Source: Sphingosinicella sp. (lineage in GTDB: Bacteria; Pseudomonadota; Alphaproteobacteria; Sphingomonadales; Sphingomonadaceae). Taken from it: a stretch of 64,000 nucleotides of DNA. Within the stretch, counting starts at the first letter, position 1; every line of letters begins with the position of its first letter. Both the position numbers and the translations under genes were made by a program. The stretch lies in NCBI RefSeq assembly GCF_013911755.1, contig NZ_JACESP010000007.1:1-64000 (forward strand), in the 5' to 3' direction. Shown here piece by piece: positions 5,085 through 62,610 of this stretch. The notes below the pieces were generated by a model. It was not told where the DNA came from and searched no databases. It saw only the letters and a list, made by a program, of their open reading frames with translations.

Positions 5085-6464
5085 ATGAGTGCCGCGCGCA
5101 GAGCGATGGCCGAGCGACCGATCAGCGTGACCGAGGTGTTCACGATCGGCATCGGGCCTTCCAGCTCCCACACGGTGGGGCCGATGCGCGCAGCGCTCGC
5201 GTTCGCCGAGGCCGCGGTGAAGCGCGGGAAGGTACGCGCGGTCGCGTGCGACGTTTACGGTTCGCTTGCGCTCACCGGGCGCGGGCACGCCACGGACACG
5301 GCGATCATCCTGGGCCTTGCCGGAAACACGCCGGAGAGCCTCGACCCGGACGCCGCCCCCGCGATACTCGCGCAAATCCGGGGCGAGGAGAAATTGCCGC
5401 TCGCGGGCGGGCGCAAGGTGATGTTCCGCGAGGCCGATCACCTGCGCTTCCGCATGGGCGAGTTCCTGCCCGGCCACCCGAACGCCGTGCGCTTCGAGGC
5501 GCATTACGAAGGCGGCGAGACGTGGATGGCGACCTATTTTTCGATCGGCGGCGGCGCGATCCTGCGCGAGGGCGAAACCGCGCAGCGCGTCAACATCCGC
5601 CTGCCGCATCCGTTCGAATCCGCCGCGGACCTGCTGCGGCTCGGCGAGGCGACGGGTCTTTCGATCGGCGACATGCTGCTTGAGAACGAACTCGCGTGGC
5701 GCAGCCGCGAGGAGACGGAGAGTTTCCTCGACAGCGTGCGCGCGGCGATGCTCGGCTGCATCGAGCGCGGCTGCCAGTCGGTGGGCATGCTCCCCGGCGG
5801 ACTGAAGGTGAAACGACGGGCAAGCGACATCCAGCGGTCGCTGACGGCGCGCGGGCCGCGCATCGACCCGTCGGCCGTGTTCGAGTGGGTGAGCCTGTGG
5901 GCGCTCGCGGTGAACGAGGAAAACGCCGCCGGAAGCCGCGTGGTGACGGCGCCCACCAACGGCGCGGCAGGCGTGCTCCCCGCCGTGCTGAAATACTACG
6001 AGGTGTTCACGAGCGCGCCGACGCCCGCCGGAAGCCGGCTGCTGCTCGCGACGGCTTCGGCGATCGGCATCCTCTACAAGAAACGCGCCTCGATCTCGGC
6101 CGCTGAAATGGGCTGTCAGGGCGAGGTGGGCGTTGCCTGCTCTATGGCGGCGGGCGGCCTCGTCGCGGCGCTCGGCGGCAGCAACCGCCAGATCGAGAAC
6201 GCCGCCGAGATCGGTATGGAGCATAACCTCGGCCTCACCTGCGACCCCATCGGGGGGCTCGTGCAGATCCCCTGCATCGAGCGCAACACGATGGGCGCGA
6301 TCAAGGCGATCAACGCCGCGTATCTCGCGCTCCACGGCGACGGACAGCATGTGGTGAGCCTCGACGCGGTGATCGAGACGATGCGGCAGACGGGCGAGGA
6401 CATGCGCTCGCAGTACAAGGAAACCAGCCTCGGCGGGCTTGCTGTCAACGTCGTCGAGTGTTGA
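5085..6464 (+). CDS. sdaA: L-serine ammonia-lyase (iron-sulfur, single-chain)
   Basis: Cytosolic L-serine dehydratase, converting serine to pyruvate and ammonia with a [4Fe-4S] cluster. The protein of about 459 residues has the N-terminal beta domain ([20 protein letters not shown], then [25 protein letters not shown]) fused to the alpha domain with the conserved [18 protein letters not shown] and [16 protein letters not shown] segments, whose cysteines hold the cluster. Several in-frame starts exist (ATG at 5049, 5085 or 5106); none has a clear ribosome site, and homology begins at about 5110, so the exact start is uncertain. The next gene begins 7 bases after the stop, suggesting an operon with the following two genes. 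Confidence 0.93.
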
Positions 6465-6471
6465 GCGGCAC

Positions 6472-7050
6472 ATGACGCACGTCCTGGTGATCGACGCGCA
6501 TCCGGACCCCGATCCGGCGCGCTTCTGCCACGCGCTTGCCGATGTCTATGCGGAAAGCGCTGCGGGCGCGGGTCATGCGGTCGAGCGGCTGGCGCTTTCG
6601 GCAATCGATATTCCCATGCTCCGCAGCCGCGCGGACTGGGAGGAGGGCGAGGCATCGCCTGCCATCAGGGACGCGCAGGCAATGATCGCGCGCGCCGAGC
6701 ATCTGGTGATCCTGTTTCCGCTGTGGCTGGGCGATGTGCCCGCGCTACTGAAGGCGTTCCTGGAGCAGGTGTTCCGCCCCGGCTTCGCGTTCCCGACCGG
6801 CCCGCGCAAGCCCGACGCCGGGCTGCTGAAGGGCAAGTCCGCACGCGTCATCGTTACCATGGGGATGCCTGCGCTGTTCTACCGCTGGGTGTACCGCGCG
6901 CACAGCCTGAAGAGCCTGCGCAGCAATATCCTGCGCTTCGTCGGCATCGGGCCGATCCGCGAGACGCTGATCGGCAATGTGGAAGGCAGCGCCGGGAACC
7001 GCGCGGAAGCCCTGGCATCGATGCGGCGGCTCGGAGCCGACGCCGCCTGA
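6472..7050 (+). CDS. NAD(P)H-dependent oxidoreductase, flavodoxin-like fold
   Basis: A 192-residue FMN- or FAD-binding oxidoreductase of the NQO1/KefF/MdaB type (Flavodoxin_2). The N-terminus MTHVLVIDAHPDPDP carries the phosphate-binding loop, and LVILFPLWLGDVPALLKAFLEQVF is the conserved second flavin loop. The start is chosen at this ATG; the frame extends 11 codons further upstream into the serine dehydratase gene without similarity. It lies 7 bases downstream of sdaA and 4 bases upstream of the next gene. The electron acceptor (quinone, nitro compound or other) cannot be told. Confidence 0.87.
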   Translation: MTHVLVIDAHPDPDPARFCHALADVYAESAAGAGHAVERLALSAIDIPMLRSRADWEEGEASPAIRDAQAMIARAEHLVILFPLWLGDVPALLKAFLEQVFRPGFAFPTGPRKPDAGLLKGKSARVIVTMGMPALFYRWVYRAHSLKSLRSNILRFVGIGPIRETLIGNVEGSAGNRAEALASMRRLGADAA

Positions 7051-54269: not shown

Positions 54270-57200
54270 TCACTCGGGCTGCCCGCCCTTCTTGTCGTCG
54301 CCCGGCAGGAAGACCCGTTCGCCGAGCGCGGTAACGTCGGTGTAGTCGCCAGCCACATGCTTGTTGTGTCGTCCGCGGAGCAGCAGATGGCTGATAGCGG
54401 GGAGGACGAACAAGGTCAGCAGCGTCGAGGTAATCAACCCGCCGATCACGACGATCGCGAGCGGTTTTTGCACCTCGGCGCCGGTCCCGGTGGCCAGCGC
54501 CATCGGCACGAAGCCGATCGCGGGGACGATCCCCGTCATCAGCACCGCCCGGACACGCTCCATCACGCCTTCACCAATGGCGACATCGACAGGTTTGCCT
54601 TCGTCGATGCGCTGGTTGATGCTCGACATCACGACAAGACCGTTAAGCACCGTCACGCCCGACAGCACGATGAAGCCCACCGCCGCCGAGACCGAGAAGG
54701 GAAGCCCGGTCAGGAGCAGCGAGAAGACGCCGCCGGCGAGCGCGAGGGGAATTGCCGAGTAGACAGCAATCGCCTGGCGCACGCCGCCCAGTGCCATGAA
54801 CAATATGCCGAAGATGGCGACGAAGATGATCGGGATAACGATCGACAGACGCGCCGACGCAGCTTGCAGATTTTCGAACTGCCCGCCCCATTCGATAAAG
54901 CTCCCGGTGGGAAGCTTGACCTGCGCATTCACCTTTTCCTGCGCTTCGGCGACGAACGAGCCCAGGTCATTGCCGCGGACATTGGCTTGCACCACGACGC
55001 GCCGCTTGCCGTTTTCGCGGCTGACCTGATTCAGGCCTTCCGAAAAGCCGAACCTCGCCAATTCGCTGAGCGGCACCGATGCCCGCGCGCCGCCTTCGCC
55101 CGGAAGGAGCACGGGAAGCGCACCTACCGCGTCGAGATCGTCGCGCGTGGCCCGGTCGAGCCGGACGACAATATCGTAGCGCCGGTCGCCTTCGAACACG
55201 ATCCCTGCCTCGCGCCCCCCAAGGGCCGCGGCGACCGTATCGCTGACATCCTGAAGCGTCAGGCCGTAACGCGCGATCGCGTCGCGGTCGAACTGGACAT
55301 CAAGCACGGGGAAGCCCGCGGTTTGCTCGACCTTGACGTCGGCGGCACCCGGAACGGTGTTCAGGATCGCCGCCACCTGCTGCGCGGCGCGGCCCATTTC
55401 ATCGAGATCATCGCCGTAGAGTTTGATCGCGATGTCACCGCGTACGCCCGCGATCAGTTCGTTGAACCGTAGCTGGATCGGCTGGCTGATCTCGAAGGCG
55501 TTGCCGACGAGCGGTTCGAGCTTCTTCTCCACCCGCTCGATGACGTCGTCCTTGGTGCTCACGCCATCGGGCCAGGCATCGCGCGGCTTCAAGATGATGA
55601 AGGTGTCCGACGCGTTGGGGGGCATCGGATCGCTGGCGACCTCCGCCGTACCCGTCTTCGAGTAGATGAAGGCGACCTCGGGAAGCGACGAGACCGCCCT
55701 TTCGACCTGCAGCTGCATTTCCTGCGACTTGTTCAGCGATGTCGAGGGGATGCGCAGCGCCTGCATTGCGAGATTGCCCTCGCCAAGCACGGGGATGAAC
55801 TCACTGCCAAGCATCCCGAAGACGAGGATGGCGGCGGCAAAAGTCCCGCCACCTGCACCGATCCACGGCCAAGGGCGCGCGATGACGCGCTTGAGCACGG
55901 GCTCGTAGCGCGTCTTCACCCAAGCGATCGCGCGCACTTCCTTCTCAGCGACTTCGCCGCGAATGAGCAGCGCGACCATTGCCGGGACGAAGGTGAGCGA
56001 TGCAACGAACGCACCGGCGAGCGCCAGCAGCACCGTAATCGCCATCGGCGAGAAGGTCTTGCCTTCGACGCCGGTGAAGGTGAGCAAAGGCACGAATACG
56101 AGAAAGATGATTGCCTGCCCGTAGATCGTTGGCTTCACCATTTCGCGCGAGGCTTCGAACACCTCGTGCAGCCGCTCGCTCAGCGAAAGCAATCGGCCTT
56201 CATGATGTTGTCGTTCCGCCAGCCGCCTGAGGCAGTTTTCGATGATGATGATCGAACCATCGACGATCAGTCCGAAGTCGAGCGCGCCAAGGCTCATTAA
56301 ATTGCCCGATGTCCCGGTAATATTCATGCCCGTGCCCATGATCAGGAACGAGATCGGGATCACCAAGGTCGCGATTACCGCGGCGCGGAAATTACCGAGC
56401 AGCCAGAACAGCACCGCCGCGACGAGTAGCGCGCCTTCGGCGAGATTCTTCTCGACGGTGCCGATCGTTGCATCGACGAGCTGCGATCGGTCGAGCACCG
56501 GTTTTACGACGATGCCCGGCGGCATCGATTTCGCAACATCCTTCAGGCGCTCAGCGGCGGCCGAGGCCACGATCCGGCTGTTGCCGTCGGCAAGCATCAA
56601 CACTGTGCCAACGACAAGTTCTTTGCCATTTTCCGACGCCGAGCCGGTGCGCAGTTCACCGCCGATCTGCACCGTCGCGATGTCGCGGACCATGACGGGA
56701 ACACCGCCGCGGCTAGCAACGGTCGCACGGCCGATTTCGTCGAGCGAGCGGATGCGGCCGTCGGCGCGGACGAGGAAGGCCTCTCCGCCGCGTTCGATGA
56801 AGTTCGCGCCGACCGAGATGTTGGCTCGCTCGAGAGCTTCGGCAAGCTCGGAGAAAGAGATGCCGTAGCTCGCCAATTTGGTCGCGTCGGGCTGGACGAC
56901 GAACTGTTTTTCATAGCCGCCGATAGAATCGACGCCGGCGACACCCGGCACCGTTCGCAGCTGCGGACGGATAACCCAATCCTGCACGGTGCGCAGATAG
57001 CCAAGCTTGGCAACATCATCGACGAGGATTTCGCCGGTTGGAGTCATGTAGGAGCCGTCGGGCTGGAAACCCGGCTTCCCTGGAATTTTCGGATTGTCCT
57101 TGGTCGCGGTCGGCGCAAAATCGACCGTGTACATCAGCACTTCGCCAAGGCCCGTCGAGACCGGCCCCATCTGGGGTTCGGCGCCGTCGGGTAAGGTGCC

Positions 57201-57554
57201 CTGAGCCTGATTGAGGCGCTCGGCGACCTGCTGCCGCGCGAAATAGAGATCGGTATGATCTTCGAAAATCACCGTGACCTGGCTGAACCCGTTGCGCGAG
57301 ATCGATCGCGAACTTTCCAGTCCCGGAATGCCAGCCATCGCGGTTTCGATGGGGAAGGTCACGAGGCGTTCGATGTCGAGCGGCCCGAGATTGGGCTGGA
57401 CGGTGTTGATCTGCACCTGCTTGTTGGTGATGTCGGGCACGGCATCGACGGGCAGCTTCAAGAGCTGCGTGAGGCCATAAGCCGAGATGATGAGGGTGAG
57501 GATGACCACACCCCAGCGAAAGCGTATCGACGCGTCGAGGAGTTTTTCGATCAT
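54270..57554 (-). CDS. czcA: Heavy-metal RND efflux transporter CzcA
   Basis: A 1094-residue proton-driven inner-membrane pump for Zn, Cd or Co from periplasm or cytosol. The start MIEKLLDASIRFRWGVVILTLII begins helix 1. The helix-4 signature ALDFGLIVDGSIIIIENCLRRLAE places it in the HME-RND Czc/Ncc group rather than Cus. PVDAVPDITNKQVQINT and MAGIPGLESSRSISRNG are further family marks. It ends with a charged tail after the last helix. The start lies one base from the czcB stop; a 17-codon longer frame is inside czcB. Confidence 0.95.
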   Translation of the reverse strand: MIEKLLDASIRFRWGVVILTLIISAYGLTQLLKLPVDAVPDITNKQVQINTVQPNLGPLDIERLVTFPIETAMAGIPGLESSRSISRNGFSQVTVIFEDHTDLYFARQQVAERLNQAQGTLPDGAEPQMGPVSTGLGEVLMYTVDFAPTATKDNPKIPGKPGFQPDGSYMTPTGEILVDDVAKLGYLRTVQDWVIRPQLRTVPGVAGVDSIGGYEKQFVVQPDATKLASYGISFSELAEALERANISVGANFIERGGEAFLVRADGRIRSLDEIGRATVASRGGVPVMVRDIATVQIGGELRTGSASENGKELVVGTVLMLADGNSRIVASAAAERLKDVAKSMPPGIVVKPVLDRSQLVDATIGTVEKNLAEGALLVAAVLFWLLGNFRAAVIATLVIPISFLIMGTGMNITGTSGNLMSLGALDFGLIVDGSIIIIENCLRRLAERQHHEGRLLSLSERLHEVFEASREMVKPTIYGQAIIFLVFVPLLTFTGVEGKTFSPMAITVLLALAGAFVASLTFVPAMVALLIRGEVAEKEVRAIAWVKTRYEPVLKRVIARPWPWIGAGGGTFAAAILVFGMLGSEFIPVLGEGNLAMQALRIPSTSLNKSQEMQLQVERAVSSLPEVAFIYSKTGTAEVASDPMPPNASDTFIILKPRDAWPDGVSTKDDVIERVEKKLEPLVGNAFEISQPIQLRFNELIAGVRGDIAIKLYGDDLDEMGRAAQQVAAILNTVPGAADVKVEQTAGFPVLDVQFDRDAIARYGLTLQDVSDTVAAALGGREAGIVFEGDRRYDIVVRLDRATRDDLDAVGALPVLLPGEGGARASVPLSELARFGFSEGLNQVSRENGKRRVVVQANVRGNDLGSFVAEAQEKVNAQVKLPTGSFIEWGGQFENLQAASARLSIVIPIIFVAIFGILFMALGGVRQAIAVYSAIPLALAGGVFSLLLTGLPFSVSAAVGFIVLSGVTVLNGLVVMSSINQRIDEGKPVDVAIGEGVMERVRAVLMTGIVPAIGFVPMALATGTGAEVQKPLAIVVIGGLITSTLLTLFVLPAISHLLLRGRHNKHVAGDYTDVTALGERVFLPGDDKKGGQPE

Positions 57555-57555
57555 C

Positions 57556-58725
57556 TCAATGCTCCGCCTCGCCCTTGCCGATTTCGGCCTTGAGCAGGAA
57601 GGCACCGCGCGTTGCGATGACCTCGCCAGGCTTTACGCCGTCGACGATCTCGATGCGGCCGCCGCCGCGCTTGCCGGTGACCACCGTGGTCGCCTGGAAG
57701 CCCATGGCGGTCTTGACGAAGACAACCTCGCGGCCTTCGACGGTCTGCACCGCCTCTTCGGGCAAAGCGATCAGGGCGGAGCCTGCACCACCCTGCGGTT
57801 TGATGCGTGCGCGAAGGCCCTGACCGGGCGTCAGCCCGGCAATGCCACCGGGAATGAGTATGATTGTGGCGCTTTTGCTCTCGGGATCGAGGCTGGGGGT
57901 TGCCGAGCGAACCCGTGCGTCGACCGTCTCGCCACCGAGAAGTTCGATGACCGCGGTATCGCCGGGCTTGATCCGACGCGCATCGGCCGCGAGCACCGAT
58001 GCATTGATCTGGATACGATTGGGGTCGGAGACGCGGAACAATTCGGTTCCGGCGAGCACATAGGATCCGAGCTTGGCGTCGGATTTCGTGATTCGCCCGG
58101 AAATAAGGCTCGTCACCGCCAGGGTGCGACCGTCGCCCGAAACCTTGGCGGCAGCGGCAGCCGACTGCGAACGCCGTGCTTCGGCCTCGGCTTCGGCAAG
58201 CGCGGCGGCGGCGGCTTCGAGATCCTGCTTCGCGGTAATCCGCGCATCAAATAGCTTCTTCTCGCGCGCATAGGTTGACCGAGCGAGGGCGAGGCGGGCG
58301 CTGGCCGCACTCCGTTCGGAGGCAATCGCGGCCGCATCGCGGCTTTCCATCACTGCTACCGCTTCCCCGGCACGCACGGCGTCGCCGAGACGGCGGTTGA
58401 TACGCGTAATCGCTCCATCTGCACGCGCCGTCAGAACGGCCTCGCCTTCGGGCGTCGCTGCCACGACTCCCTGCGCAAGTATTTCCGAGCCGAGGCCGCC
58501 AGCCTGGATCGTCTCGGTGACGATGCCCGCGCCTTTGGCGCGCGCCTCGTCCATCAGAATCTGCCCTTCGACATGTCCTTCCTCTTCTTCCTCGGCGGAT
58601 GCCGCGGGTGCGGCGGCCTCGGGAGCGGTCATCGAGCGACCGATCAGGATACCGCTGCCGCCCAACAGGAGAGCCCCGACCGCGACGGCGGCCATGAGGC
58701 GATTCTTGGTTTCGAAGATTTGCAT
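57556..58725 (-). CDS. czcB: RND periplasmic adaptor CzcB
   Basis: A 389-residue membrane-fusion protein connecting CzcA with CzcC. An N-terminal helix is followed by an acidic stretch (AEEEEEGHVEG) rich in Glu with a His, a possible metal site. The barrel-sandwich domain begins at LTARADGAITRINRRLGDAVRAGEAVAVMES, then an alpha-hairpin (residues about 140-200, Ala/Glu-rich coiled coil) and a beta-barrel. The ATG at 58725 is taken; a longer frame overlaps czcC. Ends one base before czcA. Confidence 0.93.
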   Translation of the reverse strand: MQIFETKNRLMAAVAVGALLLGGSGILIGRSMTAPEAAAPAASAEEEEEGHVEGQILMDEARAKGAGIVTETIQAGGLGSEILAQGVVAATPEGEAVLTARADGAITRINRRLGDAVRAGEAVAVMESRDAAAIASERSAASARLALARSTYAREKKLFDARITAKQDLEAAAAALAEAEAEARRSQSAAAAAKVSGDGRTLAVTSLISGRITKSDAKLGSYVLAGTELFRVSDPNRIQINASVLAADARRIKPGDTAVIELLGGETVDARVRSATPSLDPESKSATIILIPGGIAGLTPGQGLRARIKPQGGAGSALIALPEEAVQTVEGREVVFVKTAMGFQATTVVTGKRGGGRIEIVDGVKPGEVIATRGAFLLKAEIGKGEAEH

Positions 58726-58738
58726 GATTTTCAGTTCC

Positions 58739-59947
58739 CTATTGCGCGTTCGCGCGGCCCAGCGCGGCAAGGGCGCGGGCGCGATCGAGCTGCGCTTCGA
58801 TCAGTTTGAGATTGGCGCTGGTCAGCGCCTCCTGGGCGTCAATCAGTTCGATGAGCGTGAACTTGCCTTGTTGGTAGCCGATCTCGGCGACCCGCGCGGC
58901 TTCACTCGCCTGGGAAAGACCGGCTCCCGACAAGGCGGAAACCCGTTCGTTCGCCGCCGCCAGCATCAGTTCAGCGCCGCGCCGCGAGAAGCGGGTATCG
59001 AGGCGCGTCTGGGCCAGCTGCGCTTCGGCGGCTTCGCCACCGGCGCGCGCGGCAGAGATGTTGCCGCGATTGCTGTTAAACACTGGCAGTGGAATGGAAA
59101 CACCGACGATGAAGGCGGTATCCTTGTTTTCGCGGAAGTTGCGAACTCCTCCCGATGCCGTGATGTCGGGCACGCCCTCGGCCTGAGCTAGGTGTACTCG
59201 TGCCGAAGCGGCATCTCGCTCCGCCGCCGCGAGGCGTTCGTCGAGGCTCTGCGCATCGGCCGGCAAGGCGGGCGGCGGCGGAAGATCCTGAGCGATGACC
59301 GACAGCTCGGGATCTTCGCTGCCGATGAGCAGGGCCAATTCTTGCCGCGCCGACAGAAGTTCTGACTGCGCGCGCAGACGTTCGGCCTTTGCCTCCGCCA
59401 GCAGGGCGTCGGCCCGCAGCTTCGTCAGCGGCGGGTCGCGACCTACATCAACGAGCGCCTCAGCGATGCGCGCCAGCTCGACCGCCCTTTCTTGGACACT
59501 GTCGGCGAGCGCTTCCCGATCCTCCGCCGCGCGCAGTTCGGCGTACGACACGATAATGTCGTGGATGAGGTCGGCGTCGGCCATTCGTAGCGCGATCTCG
59601 GCGAACGACCGCTCGGCGGCGGCGACCTCCTTGCGCGCGCGCCTTTTTCCCCCGAGCTCGAAAGGCTGCGACACCGCAATTGTGGTCTCGGTCTGGCGAA
59701 AGGTTCGATAGGGTCCGGTGCCGCTGAAATTCTCGACTTCGGCGGATATGGTGGGATTCGGACGCACACCCGCCTGCATGGCACGTCCCACGGCCGCCTT
59801 AAGTTCGGCTTTGGCCTTGGCGAGCCGTGGCGATACGTCTCGTCCGCGCGCCAGCGCGTCGGACAAAGAGACAGGTTCGGCGAACGCGGGTTGCCCTGCC
59901 ATTGCCAGCGTCCCTGCGAACAGCAGGACGCCCAGTGATTTCGACAT
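58739..59947 (-). CDS. czcC: TolC-family outer-membrane channel CzcC
   Basis: A 402-residue outer-membrane factor of the Czc pump. A signal peptide (LAMAGQPAFA) precedes PVSLSDALARGRDVSPRLAKAKAELKAA, the first TolC repeat. NFSGTGPYRTFRQTETT...FELGGKRRARKEVAAAERS and SIPLPVFNSNRGNISAARAGGEAAEAQLAQTR are characteristic of the CzcC group. It opens the czcCBA row, with a 13-base gap to czcB. A His-rich small protein and a hairpin lie upstream. Confidence 0.93.
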   Translation of the reverse strand: MSKSLGVLLFAGTLAMAGQPAFAEPVSLSDALARGRDVSPRLAKAKAELKAAVGRAMQAGVRPNPTISAEVENFSGTGPYRTFRQTETTIAVSQPFELGGKRRARKEVAAAERSFAEIALRMADADLIHDIIVSYAELRAAEDREALADSVQERAVELARIAEALVDVGRDPPLTKLRADALLAEAKAERLRAQSELLSARQELALLIGSEDPELSVIAQDLPPPPALPADAQSLDERLAAAERDAASARVHLAQAEGVPDITASGGVRNFRENKDTAFIVGVSIPLPVFNSNRGNISAARAGGEAAEAQLAQTRLDTRFSRRGAELMLAAANERVSALSGAGLSQASEAARVAEIGYQQGKFTLIELIDAQEALTSANLKLIEAQLDRARALAALGRANAQ

Positions 59948-60467: not shown

Positions 60468-60983
60468 TTATCCAGCCACACTCCAGGCTGTCAATGCTCG
60501 GCGAATCCGCATCAATGCCAAGCTCATGTGATGTTGGACGCCCTTGTCGCCGATGCCGAGGTGTTTCGCAATCTCCGTATAGGTCATATGTCTCGTCCGG
60601 TGCATCATGAAAACGCGCCGGGTCCGGCGCGACATGGCGCGGAGTGCCCGCCCGTAAGCTCGCCGCAAGTCGGCCTCCTCGATTCGCCATGTCTGCTCCG
60701 GGCAGACGGGGGCGTCGCAGCCTTCGTCGAAGGGAAAGATGACGGCTTGCGACTGCTGTTGCTGGCGCGCGCGGTCGATCAGCAGATTGCGGGCGGAGCG
60801 GGTCAGGTAGGCCTGCGGATTGTCCATCCGCTCGAAAGCGCCGCTGCGCAGCAGGCGAGCGAAGGTCTCCTGCATCAGATCGGGCGCCTCGTCGCGACCG
60901 ACCCTCGTCCTGAAGTAGCGCAGCAGTCGCCCGTGCTCGGCCCGATAAAAGGCCGCGAACGCGGCGGTCGAATCGCGCGTCAT
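60468..60983 (-). CDS. ECF-type RNA polymerase sigma factor
   Basis: A 171-residue sigma factor with region 2 (RYFRTRVGRDEAPDLMQETFARLL, residues about 22-45, then NPQAYLTRSARNLLIDRAR) and region 4 (LRAMSRRTRRVFMMHRTRHMTYTEIAKHLGIGDKGVQHHMSLALMRIRRAL). It most resembles the FecI-like group, but no FecR anti-sigma or TonB receptor gene follows. Its start overlaps the stop of an upstream nucleotidyltransferase-like gene (ATGA), so the two are coupled. Target promoters unknown; the adjacent czc genes are on the same strand and are candidates. Confidence 0.9.
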   Translation of the reverse strand: MTRDSTAAFAAFYRAEHGRLLRYFRTRVGRDEAPDLMQETFARLLRSGAFERMDNPQAYLTRSARNLLIDRARQQQQSQAVIFPFDEGCDAPVCPEQTWRIEEADLRRAYGRALRAMSRRTRRVFMMHRTRHMTYTEIAKHLGIGDKGVQHHMSLALMRIRRALTAWSVAG

Positions 60984-61468
60984 GGCCGTGCTCCCCGGCG
61001 TTCACGCGCATAGAGCGGTGCATCGCGCGCGGCACGGTACAGCGTGATGCCTGCCTCAATGCGGTCGAGAATGAACGTGTCCCGTTCGGTCCTGGCGATG
61101 CGAATGTCGGACTTGGCGAAGATTTCAAGATCGACCGCGCAGCGGTCGCCGAGTTCGCGGTCGATGACCGTGCGGGCGCGGCGCCAGCAGCGGTCATCAG
61201 TGAACAGCGGATGGTTGACGACGATCCAGAGTTCGTAGTCAGAAAAGGCAAGCGTGTGCCGGTCTTCATACCAGGAGCGCCGCGCATAGGGGCCGATCAG
61301 GATGATCCGCTTGATCTGGCCGGGCTCGGGCGCCTGCACCTGTTCGGGGTCGAAGCAGCCGCGCACTATGCGCGCGATCCGTTCAACCTCACTCTGCTTG
61401 CGGCGGATGAGATGGTCGACGCGCGCCATCACGACCTCGCGCGCGTAAACGTCGATAGGGGGTGTCAT
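60980..61468 (-). CDS. Degenerate nucleotidyltransferase-domain protein
   Basis: A 162-residue protein with a single nucleotidyltransferase-fold domain. IKRIILIGPYARRSWYEDRHTLAFSDYELWIVV aligns with the GSHARG...SDYDILI active site of the larger protein at 61690-62610, but the glycine-serine pair reads GP and the second catalytic Asp is Glu. A later Asp in CAVDLEIFAK may be the third carboxylate. The opening VDHLIRRKQSEVERIARIV also matches that protein, so the two are tandem paralogues; this one lacks the HEPN half. Activity is doubtful. It is translationally coupled to the ECF sigma factor, which is unusual. Confidence 0.75.
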   Translation of the reverse strand: MTPPIDVYAREVVMARVDHLIRRKQSEVERIARIVRGCFDPEQVQAPEPGQIKRIILIGPYARRSWYEDRHTLAFSDYELWIVVNHPLFTDDRCWRRARTVIDRELGDRCAVDLEIFAKSDIRIARTERDTFILDRIEAGITLYRAARDAPLYARERRGARP

Positions 61469-61689
61469 ATACAGCTCGCACACCAGCGGTCCGCGCGTTC
61501 ATGCGCGGATGTGCAAGCGGTGTCCGCTGCGTGCCGCAGATGCGGCTTACAGCAACTGCCCGACCATAATGGCCGAGCCTGCATGATGCCTGGCAGGGTT
61601 ATCCCGGAGATGGCCGCCAGTCATTCCATCCCGTGGCAGGAATATGCCAGAATCCGGGCGGTTCGGCAAGTTGCCGGGAAGTGGCGGGT

Positions 61690-62610
61690 TTATTTGTTCG
61701 CCGCCGCTTCCAATTCGGCGACGCGCTCAGAACAGACCTGATGAACAACGCGCCCAAGTTCCTCGACACGGGCGCCGAGCCAAGTCAGCTCTTCATCGCT
61801 GATCTTGTAATGCTTGGAGTAGCGGGCCTTCGTGTAGGCTTCCTTCAGCTTCTGAAACATGGCGCGGTCACGACGATTGTCCTCGGGCCATATCCCGAAC
61901 AAGCGCCGGTCCAATCCTTCAGCGAGAGAACGCAAGAAAGCGATATTGTGATTGTATGGCGTATAGTATGTCAGCGTGAGCAAAAGGCAGGAATAAAGCC
62001 GCTCTGTGGTTTGGTGAAAATCAAACGCTGCGTCCTTCAGCAAGCCTTCTCCCATAGCGTACTTTGCGAGTTTCTGACGCGACATCGCACTTGCGATGCC
62101 GTCTTCAAAATACTCTTTCGCCGCCGCTAGGGCTTCTCCCGGTGATTTGGGTCGGGGGGCCCGTAGTTCGCGGTCGTCCGCCTCATAAAGCGCGACACCG
62201 TCTTTGGCGACCTCCATGAAAAAGACGCGGCCATGCGCGAGGCCGTCGTTCACCTCATGCAGAGAGTGGACGATGAAGTTGACCGGCGTGCGTAGCGTCT
62301 TCTCGATCGTATAGGCCCGGATCAGTCGTTCCTCGGCTTTGGCCCAATAGGTGGCGCGGTCGGTCAGCTCCTTCTGGCTGACGATGATGAGGATGTCGTA
62401 GTCGGACTTGTACTGGTTCGCCGAGAGCGGCGCATCGACCCAATTGCCGCGCGCATGGCTTCCAAACAGGACGATTTTAAGGATACGCGCGCCCTTGCGC
62501 CGCCCGACCGCGTTCTCGGTCGCCTCGCGAAACTCGTCAAAAATGATCTCGACGATGCGCTCAAGCTCGCGCTGCTTCGCGGCAGGGAGGTGGTCGATAT
62601 CGGTGCGCAT
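61690..62610 (-). CDS. Nucleotidyltransferase-HEPN fusion protein
   Basis: A 306-residue protein joining an N-terminal nucleotidyltransferase domain (residues about 1-150) to a C-terminal HEPN domain (about 165-290). The first has IVLFGSHARGNWVD and KSDYDILIIVS, the usual minimal-nucleotidyltransferase active site. The second has AKYAMGEGLLKDAAFDFHQTTERLYSCLLLTLTYYTPYNHN, the HEPN helix pair, without an obvious RxxxxH ribonuclease motif. Separate proteins of these two types form MNT/HEPN toxin-antitoxin pairs; fused ones are of unclear function. A related single-domain gene lies 220 bases downstream. Confidence 0.9.
   Translation of the reverse strand: MRTDIDHLPAAKQRELERIVEIIFDEFREATENAVGRRKGARILKIVLFGSHARGNWVDAPLSANQYKSDYDILIIVSQKELTDRATYWAKAEERLIRAYTIEKTLRTPVNFIVHSLHEVNDGLAHGRVFFMEVAKDGVALYEADDRELRAPRPKSPGEALAAAKEYFEDGIASAMSRQKLAKYAMGEGLLKDAAFDFHQTTERLYSCLLLTLTYYTPYNHNIAFLRSLAEGLDRRLFGIWPEDNRRDRAMFQKLKEAYTKARYSKHYKISDEELTWLGARVEELGRVVHQVCSERVAELEAAANK

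Follow-up and report, generated by a model that had tools for sequence, protein, structure and literature searches.

Control of extracytoplasmic function (ECF) sigma factors is commonly ascribed to anti-sigma proteins. Lasso-peptide clusters with an isopeptidase typically carry sigma/anti-sigma pairs, in FecI/FecR/TonB-receptor arrangements, and the part of their description available to us mentions no leader RNA (PMC9266682). The type VII toxin-antitoxin system HepT/MntA joins HEPN and MNT folds in one module within a mobile context (PMC7641770), and riboswitches and other structured leader RNAs, as collected in Rfam 15, are conserved folded elements standing before the first gene of an operon. 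Here we describe a structured leader RNA belonging to a family that is absent from Rfam 15, found in a 64,000-nucleotide stretch of DNA from Sphingosinicella sp. (contig NZ_JACESP010000007.1, positions 1 to 64,000; hereafter the window). It stands between the gene for a fused nucleotidyltransferase (NTase) and HEPN protein and an operon that encodes a short NTase-like protein and an ECF sigma factor, three genes that we refer to together as the triad.

The locus resembles each of these systems in part. Its sigma factor is of the FecI kind with regions 2 and 4 (Pfam Sigma70_r2, 3.1e-11, and r4_2, 4.2e-11), but the operon has the short NTase in the place of FecR, no TonB receptor adjoining and no lasso genes: reading of the adjoining open reading frames (ORFs) gave no FecR-like gene beside the sigma gene, and lasso isopeptidase, cyclase and B2 genes had no match in the window. 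Unlike the isopeptidase clusters, as far as the available part of PMC9266682 describes them, it has a covarying leader RNA ahead of sigma. HEPN and MNT folds and the mobile context are shared with HepT/MntA, but here the domains are fused, the motif spacing is GS-X18-DXD, the RX4HXY motif is missing, and RNA and sigma genes accompany the protein. With riboswitches the element has in common its position, its folding and a likely pseudoknot, yet it is linked to ECF sigma genes and NTase-HEPN, and no Rfam 15 family matched at E below 1 over the element in the window region or at 12 other loci (the three Rfam matches listed fall elsewhere, far below their gathering scores).

In the window, a highly conserved element occupies the stretch of approximately 200 bases that separates the two NTase genes. 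Of 50 loci that encode relatives of the short NTase, 48 keep this element next to the short NTase, the exceptions being one locus cut at a contig edge (L073) and one without the element (L076). We folded the window copy together with those of 40 of the 50 loci, omitting near-copies and the two exceptions, and RNAalifold predicted 35 pairs over these 41 sequences, ten of them with two-sided changes. When the pseudoknotted structure of the triad form was scored, 96.9% of 1903 pair cells were standard and 27 cells carried two-sided changes, compared with 7.1 in shuffled alignments and a maximum of 15 when partners were slid; the number of further pair types showed no excess (37, against 37.2 shuffled). 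U-G, U-A and C-G alternate in P3 and P4 in a manner compatible only with the minus strand of the window, and the RNA is therefore assigned to that strand. The unpaired CAU of GGCAUCAUG is invariant in the core, and single-sequence folding lies modestly below shuffles (z -2.4). In the triad form the RNA ends in a 3' helix whose GCGAGC arm contains the Shine-Dalgarno-like GCGAG of the short NTase, and each pair of this helix is retained in 39-41 of the 41 sequences. An alternative switch hairpin, AGCGG/CCGCU, was rejected as the main fold, with 13 of 205 cells A-C, whereas P4 (UUGCUG/CAGCGG) holds in 41 of 41 sequences. A pairing of the invariant CAUCAUG with the start codon, which RNAalifold suggests for one subgroup, was dropped; the start regions of the other subgroups misfit it by eye. 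Upstream of the RNA, a candidate promoter was read from the alignments of relatives and is supported by its conservation; a strict sigma70 scan did not list it. Taken as a whole, we regard it as nearly certain that the structured RNA itself is real.

The RNA is not confined to the triad. In the genome from which the window comes, model R1 finds two copies, that of the window and a second (C8:40723-40537, 30 bits) standing before a FecI-like sigma gene, FecR and a TonB receptor. Over 298 genomes of the family, R1 gave 18 weak matches, of which 12 lie ahead of sigma genes; four (L102, L104, L107 and L108, 22-25 bits) overlie coding ORFs and were rejected, and the remaining two (G297:C3:93895 and the partial L109) were left unclassified. 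Model R2, which covers the core, rests on 33 sequences, of which 11 are non-triad and one is the window copy (L116), in a MAFFT alignment that was not fitted to the structure. In this training alignment 91.1% of cells are paired and 39 cells carry two-sided changes, where shuffling gives 9.6 and sliding no more than 16. Searching 397 Sphingomonadales genomes with R2 gave 56 matches in 44 genomes (E <= 0.01), and a sigma gene lies downstream on the same strand in 52, which are all the matches above 30 bits (the sigma gene being partial in L124 and L150); the other four (L166-L169, 27-30 bits) have no sigma gene and were counted as misses. With 21 sigma region-4 matches above the cut-off in the 3.6 Mb of the window's own genome, we estimate the chance of a sigma gene after the RNA at below 1% per match. 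When 67 R2 matches (62 distinct) were aligned to the model, 208 cells were two-sided, compared with 71 in shuffles and no more than 64 with slid partners; since the alignment was fitted to the structure, this figure is biased towards it. A search at the level of the class (387 genomes) gave a sole match outside the order (L170), which lies inside a long ORF and was rejected.

The gene that follows the RNA is a short NTase in 11 of the 52 copies (the triad type) and something else in 41. In the window the sigma gene begins at +566 from the core, behind the short NTase. In 10 of the 11 triad-type copies the core is followed by the short-NTase ATG at +82 to +85. Of 47 sigma-first copies, 44 have an in-frame start that lies 80-120 nt past the core, usually at 103-110, with many GTG or TTG codons (four duplicate loci were dropped from these counts). 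FecR or a TonB receptor follows sigma in 39 of the 41 non-triad copies, and all 39 are lasso-peptide clusters: isopeptidase and cyclase matches occur in all 38 fetched regions (L214-L251), with a B2 gene too in 34 of them, and the other RNA copy in the window's own genome (the C8 copy, L254) has isopeptidase, cyclase and B2 alike. At two loci whose identity was set with NCBIfam and Pfam we found an Atxe2-type isopeptidase (773 and 784 bits), lasso B2 and a benenodin-family/subterisin precursor, the cyclases at both lying below the lasso cyclase cut-offs. In L247 and L248 the isopeptidase and the TonB receptor are on the strand opposite the sigma gene, so the order sigma-(FecR)-receptor-isopeptidase, though usual, does not hold everywhere. 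The two copies that are neither lasso nor triad are L124 (NTase-HEPN and a partial sigma gene), whose region (L253) holds no lasso gene in 14 kb, and L163. L095 and L124 (G456:C11) carry NTase-HEPN and the RNA without a short NTase, with other ORFs and a partial region-4-type sigma downstream. As a separate observation, LuxI and PhyH-type dioxygenase genes each occur in 23 of 41 loci beside the RNA, sigma and lasso genes (L214 1925-4259, L217-L224, L229-L231 and others), which suggests quorum control of these clusters.

We tentatively favour, with a little less than even confidence, a model in which the leader RNA gates translation of the sigma operon, with NTase-HEPN as a trans partner and the triad as an offshoot carried on conjugative elements. 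A sigma70-type promoter would give a transcript headed by the folded leader (P1, hairpins P2-P5 and a pseudoknot between the P1 loop and UGCCAG). Its last helix in the window form would mask the ribosome-binding sequence of the short NTase, so that the fold would set translation of the short NTase and, via the ATGA overlap, that of sigma; translational control is proposed because of the Shine-Dalgarno helix and because the short-NTase ATG keeps a constant position. In lasso-peptide clusters that core is found a short way ahead of the sigma start codon. NTase-HEPN is most likely, from its linkage, the trans-acting partner, which would bind, cut or nucleotidylate the leader or else act on the sigma branch, and the short NTase, which has no HEPN domain and probably no activity, is most likely a binding protein in FecR's place, acting as an antagonist of sigma or of NTase-HEPN. 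A more ambitious version, in which this undescribed RNA class would be the signal-receiving leader of an ECF sigma family, switched by NTase-HEPN through cutting or nucleotidylation, used by lasso uptake operons and adopted by conjugative elements that swapped FecR for a dead NTase, we hold to be rather doubtful.

The link to NTase-HEPN was assessed by co-occurrence and distance. NTase-HEPN is encoded in all 40 RNA-positive genomes, not counting the window's own and omitting three genomes with sub-30-bit matches only, against a background of 29 among 147 genomes sampled from the order, some RNA-positive ones included. Measured between start coordinates, 21 of the 52 RNAs have an NTase-HEPN gene within 2 kb, 35 have one within 15 kb and 45 have one within 45 kb; as a genome of about 4 Mb has about 2.8 listed matches, we estimate the chance level within 45 kb at about 6%. 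Of the 11 triad-type copies, 9 have the gene directly before the RNA on the same strand; so do 6 of the 41 others, and in 4 more it is divergent. Among genomes known to have NTase-HEPN, isopeptidase genes are within 45 kb of it in 42 of 62 cases. These data bear on the possibility that the RNA is a ligand-binding riboswitch independent of NTase-HEPN, the latter merely travelling with it on integrative and conjugative elements, an account that is possible if on the unlikely side. The RNA has the build of a riboswitch, with a compact core near a start codon, a likely pseudoknot and the invariant unpaired CAU, and the shared mobility is real: many triads lie near relaxase, coupling-protein, ParB, ArdC or integrase genes, two NTase-HEPN paralogues in the window's genome (L078 and L080) stand behind MucR-like ORFs and ORFs that we take to be integrase- and AlpA-like, and NTase-HEPN occurs without the RNA too. 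Hitch-hiking, however, poorly explains why no RNA-positive genome of the 40 is without NTase-HEPN, or why the gene precedes the RNA directly on the same strand in triad-type and other copies alike.

The features of the window locus are collected in Table 1. As the sequence-only reading had it, two NTase-fold genes lie in tandem, one fused to HEPN with GSHARG/SDYD and one short with GPYARR/SDYE: ORFs and motifs bear this out, and while searches of Pfam, NCBIfam and PADLOC gave nothing at E <= 1 for the short protein, it aligns with the NTase half of NTase-HEPN in a profile-profile comparison (probability 96.9, E 1.4e-10, 131 columns). NTase-HEPN itself matches Pfam HEPN (3e-6) and NTP_transf_2 (1.4e-4). 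For the short NTase the ATG start is more likely than the listed GTG, because GCGAG precedes it and its place after the RNA appears constant. A plus-strand ORF (window 61211-61741) and similar ORFs in relatives look conserved, most likely as a shadow of the conserved RNA and NTase genes.

Table 1. Features of the leader RNA and triad in the window.
Feature	Position	Strand	Details
NTase-HEPN fusion gene	61690..62610	minus	306 amino acids
Candidate sigma70-like promoter	61641..61669	minus	TTGCCG-N17-CATATT, upstream of RNA; TTGCCG-N17-CATAAT as consensus of relatives
RNA core shared with lasso-peptide clusters	61552..61635	minus	model R2, 84 positions, 94.3 bits
Parts of RNA core			P1 (loop CUGGC), hairpin P2, UGCCAGGCAUCAUG, hairpin P3; pseudoknot CUGGC/GCCAG
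Structured leader RNA, full triad form	61474..61634	minus	model R1, 161 positions, 187 bits
3' helix of RNA	61474..61518	minus	GCUUGC (61518-61513) pairs with GCGAGC (61479-61474)
Short NTase-like gene	60980..61468	minus	162 amino acids from ATG 61468; start in ORF list GTG 61483 (167 amino acids)
Overlap ATGA, short-NTase stop and sigma start	60980..60983	minus
ECF (FecI-like) sigma factor gene	60468..60983	minus	171 amino acids

The neighbourhood is conserved across sphingomonads and so is not limited to one strain. Three of the five other genomes of the genus have short-NTase relatives (90-93% identity), one of them with two copies, and the 50 loci lie in named genome contigs, nearly all labelled sphingomonads. 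All three genes of the triad, counting sigma-like ORFs, occur together in 47 of the 50. NTase-HEPN is upstream of the short NTase in 47 (as a partial gene in L027 and L033, and at a distance of 3 kb in L067) and was not found there in L054, L073 and L076, and a sigma-like ORF is present in 49, with tblastn giving only a region-4 sigma match in L054 and L067. The gap between the NTase genes is 192-210 bases in 30 loci, 545-3189 bases in 17 and unmeasurable in 3, the wide-gap loci retaining the part that adjoins the short NTase. In those 17 triads, inserts of 0.5-3.2 kb sit between NTase-HEPN and the RNA (e.g. L044, L053, L069 and L070); by reading they hold differing ORFs, which resembles an insertion hot spot. 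The four-base overlap of short NTase and sigma, noted earlier in the window, extends to relatives: the short-NTase stop falls within ATGA or GTGA in 45 related loci, and a script that picked the in-frame sigma start nearest this stop found the overlap in all 39 loci for which it returned a start, while the other six have ATGA at the stop. A tandem second ECF sigma copy stands behind the first in some triads (L046, L052, L069, L074 and L145). In L074, from Sphingopyxis, the short NTase is split across two frames (6001-6502), with the RNA and two sigma copies remaining, and it was excluded from the protein alignments. Plasmid matches (204 records) were all below 60% identity, and among the 40 listed those with annotation are nucleotidyltransferase/HEPN proteins. 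In a tree of sigma proteins, 16 of 18 triad sigmas fall on one supported branch and the RNA-linked sigmas group together, a weak grouping in that, of ten ordinary ECF sigmas from the window's genome, six fall outside the RNA-linked ones and four among them, all on long branches.

By occurrence, the short NTase stands in for FecR. The absence of a FecR-like anti-sigma, claimed for the window, holds at all 50 triad loci (one FecR query, E <= 1e-4); lasso genes are likewise missing from all 50, and a TonB receptor occurs at one (L033), about 5 kb away on the opposite strand. The motifs GPYARR/SDYE are conserved in relatives with a GP-X16-DXE spacing, and residue 113, at the third acidic site, is D, G or N. 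A third acidic residue has a role in polymerase-beta-like NTases. With GP for GS, DXE for DXD and this site not conserved, it is plausible that the short NTase is a pseudo-enzyme and probably inactive. In MntA, changes of GS to AT and of DXD to EXE abolish AMP transfer (PMC7641770). An AlphaFold model of the short NTase was poor (mean pLDDT 58) and was not used. Such a pseudo-enzyme could be a direct anti-sigma (or co-sigma) factor, or the larger NTase could nucleotidylate sigma, the RNA being a leader for constitutive expression. The conserved translational coupling, the absence of FecR where the short NTase appears, and a short NTase that is conserved (82% mean column identity) next to a sigma that varies more (47-94% identity to that of the window, excluding two region-4-only loci) speak for this; 41 of the 52 RNA-sigma operons, however, lack a short NTase, control at the protein level alone leaves the covarying leader unexplained, and we consider it quite unlikely. 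Nucleotidylation of sigma by the larger enzyme, also raised in the sequence-only reading, found no support, as the motif is GS-X18-DXD and not the GSX10DXD of studied nucleotidylating enzymes. The wider suggestion there of a novel kind of sigma control survives in part: linkage strongly supports a tie between NTase-HEPN and ECF sigma, and the pseudo-enzyme is plausible. The leader RNA and its lasso relatives had been overlooked, and it is the leader that looks like the actual control element.

NTase-HEPN also invites comparison with toxin-antitoxin modules. In an alignment of 34 sequences G50, S51, D70, D72 and N111 are invariant, the last at the third acidic site; GSX10DXD is absent, and the HEPN half has RYSKHY instead of the RX4HXY RNase motif, with R263 and H267 invariant. 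This half is related to the solved structure 4nqf (1.9e-44). Read as a fused HEPN/MNT toxin-antitoxin or defence module, with the short NTase as an extra antitoxin and sigma as a passenger on a shared promoter, the locus would fit the HEPN and NTase folds, a weak match to the NCBIfam MntA family, a PADLOC match to the candidate defence protein PDC-S09 (3.3e-6) and the mobile context. We think this very unlikely, given that both motifs are missing, that the MntA match (NF047752) reaches 22.6 bits against a cut-off of 60, and that the sigma gene follows the RNA even without a short NTase, which hardly suits a passenger.

The window's own genome has four other NTase-HEPN genes, three beside a sigma-region-4 protein on other islands and the fourth beside a lasso cluster. 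Their products are 60-64% identical to that of the window, but the islands with the region-4 protein have no short NTase and no leader RNA was found in them, the sigma-like protein consisting of region 4 only. Such small region-4-only proteins stand directly before NTase-HEPN paralogues in L077 (7614-8174, minus), L078 (3738-4139, plus), L080 (6573-7172, plus), L014 and L021, that of L078 matching Pfam at 1.6e-17 in two stretches. A further NTase-HEPN fragment with an internal TGA lies at G000:C26:17405-17800 (minus). Clustering of ORFs over the 50 triad loci, with Pfam names set on one representative each, gave 14 calls of MobA/MobL-type relaxases, 12 of TrwC relaxases, 12 of ParB-like proteins, 11 of coupling proteins, 9 of MucR, and 5 each of integrases and ArdC-like proteins. 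Past the end of the window, some 3 kb upstream of its NTase-HEPN gene, the genome has a TrwC relaxase, and the ORF after it resembles a coupling protein by reading. Czc-type RND efflux genes after the triad (window 54270-59947) and a cation-efflux gene before it, between NTase-HEPN and the TrwC relaxase (L081 4213-4875), are probable metal-resistance cargo.

Several results weigh against translational gating by the leader with NTase-HEPN as its partner. The transcript, the RNA fold and the protein roles are all predicted from sequence. The Shine-Dalgarno helix is nearly invariant, so covariation is no proof of it, and it is limited to the triad form; the pseudoknot varies little, with one pair showing a two-sided change in 33 sequences. 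The range of 80-120 nt for sigma starts was chosen with the starts already in view, such starts are not rare, and the count comes without a chance level. For the partner, 7 of the 52 RNAs have no NTase-HEPN within 45 kb (six have none on the contig and one lies 682 kb off), 20 of the 29 NTase-HEPN-positive sampled genomes have no RNA match above 30 bits, the HEPN half is without the RX4HXY RNase motif, and the co-occurrence may come from shared mobile elements. Isopeptidase genes were found in 69 of the 397 genomes, scoring at most three candidates per genome, and an R2 match above 30 bits is lacking in 33 of the 69; therefore not all lasso clusters use the leader.

Among the literature matches listed, no title concerned a leader RNA of ECF sigma or lasso operons or NTase-HEPN with sigma, a weak negative with subscription papers outside its scope. 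A covarying leader before one branch of ECF sigma factors adds an RNA layer of control, and with it many sphingomonad lasso-peptide clusters gain a testable regulator and the widespread NTase-HEPN proteins a possible role.

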